42,219 nt of DNA from Armatimonadota bacterium (GTDB lineage: Bacteria; Armatimonadota; UBA5829). Below the pieces are notes generated by a model. The model ran no database searches and was not told the DNA's origin. It saw only the letters and a list, made by a program, of their open reading frames with translations. The translations under genes were made by a program, and so were the position numbers. Shown piece by piece: positions 13,538 through 21,196 of this stretch. The stretch is taken from assembly GCA_039679645.1 (NCBI GenBank), contig JBDKUO010000026.1, forward strand, positions 1-42,219, in the 5' to 3' direction. Numbering within the stretch: the stretch's first letter is position 1; every line of letters begins with the position of its first letter.

Positions 13538-14113
13538 CTAAATGTCGTGAGCGATGATGAGAGCTTCGGCGATCTCCTTCATCGAGCGGCGCTGGTTCAT
13601 GCTCTGCTGCTGTATTCGCCTGAATGCTTCGGCCTCGGAGAGCTTATACTTGTCCATTAAAATACCTTTGGCGCGGTCAACAATCTTGCGGGTCTCAAGC
13701 TTGGTCTCAAGATCGCCCAGAGTAGTCTCGAGTTCCTGCTGCTCCAAGTATCTCGATATCGCTATCTCGATTGCGGGCAGTACATCCGATTCCTGGAAAG
13801 GCTTAACCAGGTATGCATATACCCCAGCCTCTTTCGCGCGCTCTATCAAATCCTTCTGGCTGTAGGCAGTAAGCAGCACCACCGGCGCGATCTTTTCATC
13901 GGCAACAATCTTTGCGGCATCGAGGCCGTCCATTACGGGCATCTTGATGTCCATTATCACGACATCCGGTTTCAGAGACCGGGTGAGTTCGAGGGCTTTC
14001 TGACCGTCGGCGGCCTCCCCTACAACAACATGCCCCATCTCCTCGAGAAGCGTTTTCAGGTCCATCCTGATAATGGATTCGTCGTCGGCTATCACAACCC
14101 TAATCTGGCTCAT
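13538..14113 (-). CDS. ANTAR-type response regulator (RNA-binding antiterminator)
   Basis: 191 residues. The receiver domain (1-120) has the acidic pair D10/D11, phosphoacceptor D55 in VIMDIKMPVMDG, T83 and K105 in YLVKPF. A coiled-coil linker (about 120-145) leads to the ANTAR domain (KIVDRAKGILMDKYKLSEAEAF, then RRIQQQSMNQRRSMKEIAEA). Family members such as EutV and AmiR dimerise when phosphorylated and bind paired hairpins in mRNA leaders to prevent termination. GGAGAGG lies 6 bases before the chosen ATG; an in-frame GTG at 14128 overlaps that site and is rejected. A strong promoter lies upstream, overlapping the divergent promoter of the GxGD membrane protein. Confidence 0.93.
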   Translation of the reverse strand: MSQIRVVIADDESIIRMDLKTLLEEMGHVVVGEAADGQKALELTRSLKPDVVIMDIKMPVMDGLDAAKIVADEKIAPVVLLTAYSQKDLIERAKEAGVYAYLVKPFQESDVLPAIEIAISRYLEQQELETTLGDLETKLETRKIVDRAKGILMDKYKLSEAEAFRRIQQQSMNQRRSMKEIAEALIIAHDI

Positions 14114-14143
14114 ATCAGTCCTCTCCACATTTATCCTACTATG

Positions 14144-18809: not shown

Positions 18810-19228
18810 AGCCTTTCGCGCTGTCGGTCAAGATGATATTAAAGGACGAACATGGCCGGTGCCTGCTGCTGAAGAGGTCTATGGACTCAAAGAATAACCC
18901 GGGTAAATGGGACTTCCCCGGCGGAAAGGTCGACCCGGGCGAAGCGTTCGATCAGGCTCTGATGCGTGAGGTTGCAGAAGAGACGGGGCTGAAGGTCGCC
19001 ATAGACAGGCTTGCCGGCTCAACTCAGTCAGAGTCACCATCCAACCATATTGTCTACCTGCTGCTCGAAGGACAGATAGAATCGGGAAAACTCACACTCA
19101 GCAGTGAGCATGACGATTTCCTCTGGGTTTATCCCCATGAGCTTGAAAAAGCGGATATCTGCGATCAGTTCAAGCAACTTGCAAAAACACTTGCCGCAAC
19201 TAAAAATGGCTCACCCCTGTGCTCATGA
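18806..19228 (+). CDS. NUDIX hydrolase
   Basis: 140 residues with a complete Nudix box: G40, E46, R54-E55, E58-E59 and G61 in PGGKVDPGEAFDQALMREVA and onward, all matching GX5EX7REUXEEXGU. The family hydrolyses nucleoside diphosphates linked to another group, such as oxidised nucleotides or sugar nucleotides. It is translationally coupled to the upstream glycosyltransferase through ATGA, which makes a sugar nucleotide a reasonable but unproven substrate. Confidence 0.88.
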   Translation: MKPFALSVKMILKDEHGRCLLLKRSMDSKNNPGKWDFPGGKVDPGEAFDQALMREVAEETGLKVAIDRLAGSTQSESPSNHIVYLLLEGQIESGKLTLSSEHDDFLWVYPHELEKADICDQFKQLAKTLAATKNGSPLCS

Positions 19229-19325: not shown

Positions 19326-19355
19326 TTGACAGTGTGTGGCATATAGATATAGAAT
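19326..19355 (+). promoter_or_regulatory. Sigma-70 promoter of the hydG leader and operon
   Basis: A perfect TTGACA (19326-19331) is followed by overlapping -10 candidates TATAGA (spacing 16) and TAGAAT (spacing 18). Transcription would begin near 19362, at the start of the structured leader and about 158 bases before the first gene. Confidence 0.65.
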
Positions 19356-19360
19356 CAAGT

Positions 19361-19508
19361 GACGGGTGATGGGACTTGTTCCACCGCCGGTTTGGAAAAA
19401 TAACCCGACCGCAAGGCCGATTGATCCGAGCGGGAGGGCGCGTTAAGCGTTTAATATCGAAACGTCTTAAGACGCCCCCTTGCAGATATGCGAGAGGGCT
19501 TTTTGTTT
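19361..19508 (+). ncRNA. Candidate cis-regulatory leader RNA (attenuator) of the hydG operon
   Basis: Between the promoter and the first gene lies a GC-rich, self-complementary leader. The 5' part (19361-19435) can form GGT(GAT)GGGA-CTTG-TTCC-ACC, CGGGT with ACCCG (19403-19407), and CGGTT with GACCG. It is followed by a long hairpin (19436-19477; GGGCG...CGCCC, TTAAG...CTTAA, CGTTT...AAACG). The 3' end of that hairpin (19474-19477) is also the 5' end of the terminator stem, so the two hairpins exclude each other. This is the layout of a transcription-attenuating riboswitch or protein-binding leader. I could not match the 5' domain to any aptamer class I know. Confidence 0.6.
19474..19508 (+). 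terminator. Intrinsic terminator in the hydG leader
   Basis: GCCCCCTTGC pairs with GCGAGAGGGC at nine of ten positions around the loop AGATAT and is followed by TTTTTGTTT. It ends 11 bases before the first gene start, so it must be bypassed for expression. Confidence 0.78.
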
Positions 19509-19519
19509 AGGTGGTGCAT

Positions 19520-19771
19520 ATGGAAAAGCGTCTGGGCGTAGTGGGAATTATAGTCGAGGACTTAACGGCAGCCGAAGAGATAAATGCAGTGCTCCATGAG
19601 TTCTCAGGCATTATAGTAGGCCGCATGGGTGTGCCGTATAAGGAACGCGGAGTGTCGGTGGTGTCCGTAATAGTGGATGGAACAGGTGACGAGATAAGCG
19701 CACTCACGGGCAGGCTTGGCCGTGTGCACAACGTATCGGTAAAGACCGCTCTGGCGAAGGAAACGAGGTAG
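19520..19771 (+). CDS. TM1266-type iron-only hydrogenase system regulator
   Basis: 83 residues matching the small ferredoxin-fold/ACT-like family annotated as iron-only hydrogenase system putative regulator: RLGVVGIIVEDLTAAEEINA, then FSGIIVGRMGVPYKERGVSV and LTGRLGRVHNVSVKTALAK. It sits 6 bases before hydG, the usual genetic company of this family. Its biochemical role is not established. AGGTGG precedes the ATG; an in-frame GTG at 19511 would overlap that site. Expression depends on read-through of the leader terminator. Confidence 0.85.
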   Translation: MEKRLGVVGIIVEDLTAAEEINAVLHEFSGIIVGRMGVPYKERGVSVVSVIVDGTGDEISALTGRLGRVHNVSVKTALAKETR

Positions 19772-19777
19772 TTTAAC

Positions 19778-21196
19778 ATGTATGACCCGAAATCCAATGA
19801 TTCCAATGAGTTTATATGTCATGAAGAGATAGAGGAGACTCTCGCGCAGGGACGAGAACAGGCTGACGATATTGTGCGGGTCAGAGAAATCCTGGCAAAA
19901 GCGGCAGACTTCAAGGGACTGACCCATCGCGAAGCCGCAGTGCTGCTGAATATTGAATCGCCGGAGATTATGGAAGAAGTCTTTGCTCTGGCCCGAAAAG
20001 TCAAGGAACACATATACGGCCGCCGGATCGTAATGTTTGCGCCGCTGTATGTCTCGGACTACTGCGTCAACCGCTGCGCTTACTGCGGTTACAACCATGA
20101 TCACGCGTTTGCACGCCATAAACTCAACCAGGAAGAGCTTGCCAGGGAAGTAAAACTGCTGGAGAGTATGGGCCACAAGCGCCTTGCTCTGGAGGCCGGT
20201 GAAGATCCCGTCAACTGCCCAATAGATTACGTGCTGGACTGCATTAAGACAATCTATTCCCTCAAGTTCGACAACGGCTCAATCCGCCGTATAAATGTAA
20301 ATATTGCCGCGACAACCGTCGAGAACTACAAGAAACTTAAAGATGCCGGCATCGGGACGTATGTTCTATTCCAGGAAACCTATCACAAACCAACCTACCT
20401 CAAGGTTCATGAGGGGCCAAAACGTAACTACGAATATCACACTGAGGCGCACGACCGCGCGATGCTCGGTGAAATTAACGATGTGGGCCTGGGATTGCTT
20501 TACGGACTGTATGATTGGAAATACGAAGTAGTCGGGCAGTTGATGCACGCTGAGCACTTGGAAGCAAGGTTTGGAGTGGGGCCGCATACATACTCCGCTT
20601 GCCGAATGCGCAAAGCCGAAGGTGTAAACGCGGAAGACTTTCCATATCTTGTAAGCGATGCGGATTTCAAGAAGATTATCGCCATATTGAGACTGGCTAC
20701 GCCGTATACCGGCATGATACTATCTACACGTGAACCGAAGGGCTATCGCGATGAGGTCATAGCGGTGGGAATCTCGCAGGTCAGCGCCGGGTCACAGACA
20801 GGAGTCGGCGGGTACGCGCATGCGGCAAAGCTGGGATTCGAGGATGAGATACCACAGTTCAAACTGGAAGATCATCGCTCACCCAATGAAATGCTCAAAG
20901 ACCTGATCCGAGACGGATATATCCCGAGCTACTGCACGGCCTGCTATAGACTGGGACGCACAGGCGACAGGTTTATGAAGCTCGCCAAAACCGGCGAGAT
21001 ACAGAATATGTGCCAGCCTAACGCAATCCTTACCCTGCAGGAATATCTTGACGACTACGGTGATGATGAACTCCGTGAGCTGGGCAAGAAGGTAATCGAC
21101 AGGGAAATGGCCGCAATACCGAACCCGAAGGTGCGCGCAAAGGCCAGTGAGTATCTCGAAAAGATTCGAGCAGGCGAGAGGGACTTCAGGTTCTAG
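19778..21196 (+). CDS. hydG: FeFe-hydrogenase H-cluster radical SAM maturase HydG
   Basis: 472 residues, the standard HydG length. HydG cleaves tyrosine to supply the CO and cyanide ligands of the FeFe-hydrogenase active site. The radical SAM motif is C96, C100, C103 (CVNRCAYC). The C-terminal C386TAC389 and C412, separated by exactly 22 residues (CX2CX22C), form the auxiliary cluster that separates HydG from the related thiamine enzyme ThiH, which lacks that tail. LALEAGEDPVN and ILSTREPKGYRDE are also family-typical. Genes for HydA, HydE and HydF are not in this window. The gene follows the TM1266-type regulator under the same leader. Confidence 0.95.
   Translation: MYDPKSNDSNEFICHEEIEETLAQGREQADDIVRVREILAKAADFKGLTHREAAVLLNIESPEIMEEVFALARKVKEHIYGRRIVMFAPLYVSDYCVNRCAYCGYNHDHAFARHKLNQEELAREVKLLESMGHKRLALEAGEDPVNCPIDYVLDCIKTIYSLKFDNGSIRRINVNIAATTVENYKKLKDAGIGTYVLFQETYHKPTYLKVHEGPKRNYEYHTEAHDRAMLGEINDVGLGLLYGLYDWKYEVVGQLMHAEHLEARFGVGPHTYSACRMRKAEGVNAEDFPYLVSDADFKKIIAILRLATPYTGMILSTREPKGYRDEVIAVGISQVSAGSQTGVGGYAHAAKLGFEDEIPQFKLEDHRSPNEMLKDLIRDGYIPSYCTACYRLGRTGDRFMKLAKTGEIQNMCQPNAILTLQEYLDDYGDDELRELGKKVIDREMAAIPNPKVRAKASEYLEKIRAGERDFRF

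Follow-up and report, generated by a model that had tools for sequence, protein, structure and literature searches.

A candidate attenuator-type leader RNA before TM1266 and hydG in an Armatimonadota genome, with a core hairpin that recurs at H-cluster maturation genes

The window, i.e. the whole analysed stretch of 42,219 nucleotides from an Armatimonadota genome, contains a TM1266-family gene followed by hydG, and the leader considered here is the gap between the end of the preceding Nudix gene (position 19228) and the TM1266 start codon (ATG 19520) (Table 1). TM1266 and HydG were assigned by NCBIfam, in agreement with the original prediction, which had been made from the letters of the DNA and had proposed a new riboswitch or attenuator at this site. 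The strong promoter and the intrinsic terminator named there were also recovered, and the RNA between them is structured as claimed, since the region 19356-19510 folds more stably than its shuffled versions (z = -2.1). The terminator had been described as ending 11 bases before the gene, whereas its T-run ends 15 nt before ATG 19520 and 6 nt before an alternative GTG start at 19511. The predicted promoter lies upstream of the terminator and has a similar counterpart in all six homologues compared, which argues against a transcript start downstream of the terminator. The genome of the window (G000, 3.4 Mb) contains ten [FeFe]-hydrogenase large-subunit domain matches, and its hydE, hydF, and hydG genes are located on three separate contigs.

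Table 1. Features of the leader and the genes downstream of it in the window
Feature	Coordinates	Strand	Evidence
Predicted sigma-70-type promoter, TTGACA-18-TAGAAT	19326..19355	+	11/12 consensus matches; similar promoters upstream of the RNA in L004-L009
P1 hairpin with G.G mismatch; apical GGGA-CUUG-UUCC	19361..19392	+	5/12 pairs with two-sided change; 96.7% of cells paired
A-rich linker	19393..19403	+	Leader alignment
P2 core hairpin, CCC-GA-CCGC-AA-GG-loop-CC-GA-GCGG-GA-GGG	19404..19438	+	Covariation in 28 + 19 sequences
P3 mini-hairpin, CGC-GUUAA-GCG	19439..19449	+	Hand fold and RNAalifold; pairs invariant
Predicted antiterminator, 5' half (3' strand of P2)	19430..19440	+	Partner 19473-19483; minimum free energy fold when the RNA ends at 19483; permutation test
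Intervening hairpin inside the antiterminator (the 'antiterminator' of the original prediction)	19443..19470	+	Window folding; weakly conserved among homologues
Predicted antiterminator, 3' half (mostly the 5' arm of the terminator)	19473..19483	+	Permutation test; window folding
Intrinsic terminator	19474..19504	+	Hairpin 19474-19499, -15.6 kcal/mol; T-run 19500-19504
TM1266-family gene (PF21699/TIGR03959)	19520..19771	+	TIGR03959, 111.9 bits; predicted fold ferredoxin-like, near the C-terminal domain of NikR
hydG, H-cluster radical-SAM maturase	19778..21196	+	TIGR03955, 687.7 bits

HydG relatives were collected from named genomes as well as from whole genomes of this phylum, and those with names include Armatimonadetes UBA5829 and UBP13. 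Leaders preceding TM1266-hydG in 10 genomes, all of them distinct, could be aligned over 95 columns, 35 of which are invariant, and drawing by hand and RNAalifold independently produced identical P1, P2, and P3 helices. In this fold, 97.1% of the cells of the 10 leaders are paired, a value that drops to ~40-47% when the alignment is slid by 1-3 columns. Two-sided changes were found in seven pairs (14 cells), compared with a mean of 5.0 cells in shuffled alignments, none of 500 of which reached 14; P3 receives no support from covariation because its pairs are invariant. The apex of P1 reads GGGA-UUUA-UUCC in several homologues. The homologous leaders thus covary, on stems different from those originally named: CGGGT/ACCCG and CGGTT/GACCG show no two-sided change and covary no more than shuffled columns do, and one pair is broken in 8 of 10 homologues. 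A third proposed stem, GGT...ACC around CTTG, does lie within P1, while the set of aptamer stems as a whole has to be replaced by P1-P2-P3. A covariance model of the leader finds a single match in the window's own genome and eight strong matches in 291 genomes of the phylum, seven of which are the leaders already found; the eighth is a new leader in G259, likewise located upstream of TM1266. Leaders of TM1266 in Clostridia (Caloramator) are picked up weakly by the same model.

The core hairpin P2 (~32 nt) is pseudo-symmetric, following the pattern CYGA-NNNN-RAGG...YYGA-N'N'N'N'-RAGG, in which two 2x2 purine loops flank a 4-bp stem. At a score of at least 7, this motif was identified in 27 of 59 regions upstream of TM1266, whereas dinucleotide-shuffled regions yielded a mean of 1.1 and a maximum of 4. 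Among 28 P2 hairpins, two-sided changes occur in eight of nine pairs and in 67 cells (shuffled mean, 16.7; 0/500), although placing these sequences by hand on the GA and AAGG motifs, with masked loops, makes the result lean towards the structure. The 4-bp stem of these hairpins occurs as C-G, U-A, A-U, and G-C at most positions. A further 19 hairpins from outside the model-building set, which also lean towards the structure in that the model used to find them rewards pairing, display two-sided changes in all nine pairs and in 45 cells (shuffled mean, 16.0; 0/500). Three regions upstream of TM1266 (L026, L049, and L058) contain a look-alike, CUGAAGCCAAGG, repeated twice; it is possibly a divergent form, the repeats are not complementary in the way that the P2 model demands, and the model has no match there.

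The P2 model is short (32 nt) and ill-suited to blind genome scans: its filter missed true sites, e.g. that of Christensenella (33 bits), and the weak genome-wide matches examined lay inside open reading frames. The contexts of P2 were therefore assessed on loci. Searching 80 hydG loci (681 kb, both strands) yielded 53 matches at E <=10, nearly all on the sense strand, the E-values of this and of the leader model being rough. Approximately 40 of the 80 loci, mostly from Clostridia, are marked directly upstream of TM1266, hydE, or hydG, and about half of the 80 contain no match to the P2 model. Three arrangements were recognized: attenuator leaders at the head of TM1266 operons; leaders of this attenuator type before hydE, seen in Christensenella and G308 and at unlinked hydE genes in Caloramator and G014; and hairpins whose 3' end abuts the Shine-Dalgarno sequence of hydG, in Thermoanaerobacterium and several Oscillospiraceae-type genomes. 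Tandem copies of P2, ~45-50 nt apart, precede TM1266 in four loci (L046, 177-259; L031, 2456-2532; L052, 2535-2615; and L079, 2526-2606). In G014, an identical P2 together with the same terminator hairpin is found on contigs C126 and C108 (L146 and L148), before TM1266-hydG and before an unlinked hydE. No P2 copy of its own was detected for hydA in 30 loci, where only a downstream TM1266 leader was found, or for hydF in the loci tested, where only an upstream hydG copy was seen. The unlinked hydE gene in the window's genome has no convincing second copy in the sequence available, the contig ending ~240 nt upstream of it. Judging from the translations, the hyd maturation clusters of L021 and L076 include an apparent aspartate ammonia-lyase gene, which is preceded in L076 by a weak P2-like match (17.3 bits). 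A conserved, covarying structure is in this way found upstream of a functionally coherent set of genes.

The pairing predicted to switch this leader joins the 3' strand of P2 to the 5' arm of the terminator. Across 32 leaders in which the terminator could be cleanly delimited, the mean energy of pairing between the P2 strand and the leader's own terminator arm was -13.9 kcal/mol, compared with -11.9 kcal/mol (sd 0.48) for permuted arms, and only 1 of 20,000 permutations was as low; for the 23 leaders that are not Armatimonadota-like, none of 20,000 was. The remaining nine leaders, all Armatimonadota-like, resemble one another and the test is consequently powerless in them. In an earlier run with poorly delimited terminator arms, 877 of 20,000 permutations were as low; the delimitation by single hairpins was adopted after that first result had been seen. 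Folding of successive transcripts of the window yields P1 and P2 when the RNA ends at 19450, the antiterminator at 19483, and P2 with the terminator at 19499. The conserved antiterminator encloses a 15-bp hairpin (~19440-19475) that had been put forward for that role and that proved to be poorly conserved. By predicted pairing, the antiterminator is accordingly mutually exclusive with the core helix and with the intrinsic terminator. For the full-length leader, the state with P2 and terminator (-53.0 kcal/mol) is ~8 kcal/mol more stable than that with the antiterminator (-44.6 kcal/mol); antitermination must therefore be kinetic or assisted, and it is for this reason that the direction of control is one we infer.

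On this basis, the leader is predicted to fold into P1 and P2; the 3' strand of the latter could, as the comparative data suggest, leave it for the 5' arm of the terminator, forming an antiterminator predicted to exclude both P2 and the terminator. When no effector is bound, the antiterminator would form during transcription and polymerase would read into TM1266-hydG; an effector stabilizing P2 would free the terminator arm, so that the terminator forms and expression declines. In species in which P2 adjoins the ribosome-binding site of hydG, the same logic would block translation. The natural reading is thus an OFF switch, which predicts that stabilization of P2 represses the maturase genes. 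We are fairly confident, from sequence comparison and predicted folding, that the region 19361-19504 is a cis-regulatory RNA of an undescribed family governing H-cluster maturation genes through this P2/antiterminator switch. Of the proposed riboswitch or attenuator, the attenuator-type RNA has good support, which comes from its conservation and covariation, from the mutually exclusive pairing, and from the lack of an Rfam match; the aptamer stems named for it are not supported.

Several explanations would dispense with the switch or assign it to a familiar machinery. A fixed terminator behind an unregulated structured 5' UTR, keeping mRNA level or stability constant, would accord with P2 plus terminator being the most stable full-length fold; we consider it unlikely given that the terminator arm matches the P2 strand beyond permutation, that the motif also occurs at unlinked hydE genes and directly at hydG ribosome-binding sites, and that the sequence is conserved across phyla. 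Control by an antiterminator protein of the ANTAR type is less probable still. A response regulator whose RNA-binding domain is of the ANTAR type (PF03861) is encoded at 13538-14128 on the minus strand, ~5 kb from the leader. ANTAR target RNAs consist of two hairpins that share a hexaloop consensus; inspection of the homologues against that consensus led to rejection of such a target, since neither the P1 loops (CUUG, UUUA, UAAA, and UGCG) nor the variable P2 loop resembles the dual hexaloop, and the leader has no Rfam match. The least credible possibility is translation-coupled attenuation through a leader peptide: the window does contain a 25-codon ATG frame starting at 19369, but this frame stops after eight codons in G004 and its ATG is missing in L004-L009, and the candidate was rejected for this want of conservation. 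A T-box leader was likewise rejected, as neither the window nor the homologues had an Rfam T-box match.

What would act on P2 is a closer question. A true riboswitch, in which P2, alone or together with P1, directly recognizes a small molecule and brings about feedback termination or a translation block with no protein involved, is a serious possibility to which we assign a chance of about one in three; candidate ligands are, for example, an H-cluster synthon (the Fe-CO-CN-cysteine product of HydG), SAM, tyrosine, iron, or a redox signal. The conserved purine internal loops flanking a covarying stem of free sequence speak for it, as do the attenuator and Shine-Dalgarno contexts and tandem copies typical of riboswitches, and the fact that it is the genes of two H-cluster enzymes, HydE and HydG, that are targeted, not hydA. 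Against it stand the core of merely ~32 nt with its two-fold pseudo-symmetry, and the distribution of TM1266, which is present in every genome examined with the element, while relatives that have hydG but no TM1266 lack the element near hydG. A protein, most likely TM1266, would explain this co-occurrence at least as well as a small-molecule riboswitch.

TM1266 was found above the curated cut-off in all 35 element-bearing genomes examined (23 reached through the loci and 12 from the phylum), a co-occurrence that is confounded in that one hydG clade carries both. In four of these genomes (Christensenella, two Thermoanaerobacterium genomes, and G308), TM1266 is located away from the element-bearing operon. 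Conversely, none of 17 members of the phylum with hydG and no TM1266 above the cut-off has the element near hydG. One genome (G012) belongs to the same genus as G008 and G014 and possesses hydG, with TM1266 and the element both absent; the RNA and TM1266 therefore seem to travel together as a module. The predicted structure of TM1266 is a beta-alpha-beta-beta-alpha-beta domain (pLDDT 94.5) without a DNA-binding domain; among solved structures it comes closest, TM1266 itself (2NZC) apart, to the C-terminal metal-sensing domain of NikR, with ACT domains further down. Residues N22, R35, and K75 are near-invariant and positions 4, 43, and 65 are largely basic, which would suit an anionic partner. 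H26 is conserved as well. Because of its co-occurrence, its fold resembling the NikR C-terminal domain, and these residues, TM1266 is rated the likeliest effector, a protein consisting of a regulatory domain only that would act on a pseudo-symmetric hairpin as a feedback repressor, and we regard this assignment as about evenly balanced. The repressor may sense an H-cluster-related signal. A more specific proposal, offered tentatively and at somewhat less than even chance, is that the stand-alone NikR-C/ACT-like TM1266 binds the CYGA-N4-RAGG hairpin and, in response to a metal or to a precursor of the H-cluster, turns down hydE, hydG, and its own gene, either through termination or by blocking the ribosome, which would constitute a new class of RNA-binding regulators with a regulon extending across several phyla.

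No Rfam 15 family matches the leader in the window at gathering scores and a permissive search of the leader returned chance-level matches only, in keeping with the initial impression that it belongs to no known aptamer class. The homologous leaders are also unmatched, permissive settings included, and only tRNA and cobalamin families were detected elsewhere in these loci. In two genomes of the window's family, cobalamin riboswitches lie directly downstream of hydG (L092, 2974-3155, and L093, 1289-1462). In the open literature searched, no RNA element tied to hydG, hydE, or TM1266 was found, with an earlier mention possible, e.g. in a 2017 survey of 224 candidate RNAs, and the genome-wide RNA-motif papers examined do not mention hydrogenase. 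Attenuation is a known kind of control; the RNA family and its regulon appear to be unreported in Rfam 15 and the literature covered.

Since the release of its structure in 2006, TM1266 has carried no more than the label 'putative regulator', and how synthesis of the H-cluster, which involves toxic CO and CN ligands and radical-SAM enzymes, is matched to demand is poorly known. A compact RNA marking hydE, hydG, and TM1266 in many Clostridia and their relatives opens the question of H-cluster supply to direct testing, suggests a concrete role for TM1266, and could be used for control in strains that produce hydrogen. Were a small precursor of the H-cluster to prove the effector, the RNA would have an unusual, organometallic ligand.

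Among known systems, transcription-attenuating riboswitches, e.g. OFF switches of the SAM-I type, similarly combine a 5' leader with a mutually exclusive core hairpin, antiterminator, and terminator, and also have a Shine-Dalgarno-proximal form. Unlike them, the hydG/TM1266 RNA has no Rfam match and a small, two-fold pseudo-symmetric core; the likeness is one of mechanism. Protein-dependent attenuators (TRAP, PyrR, ANTAR/EutV, and ribosomal-protein leaders) share with it a small recurrent hairpin, tandem copies, and several unlinked targets, and often have the candidate regulator, here TM1266, as the first gene in the operon. The present RNA differs from these in that it matches no Rfam leader family and in that RNA binding by TM1266 is a proposal. 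The TM1266 family itself (PDB 2NZC; TIGR03959, 'iron-only hydrogenase system putative regulator') would enter this comparison twice, as the gene controlled here and as the candidate effector.
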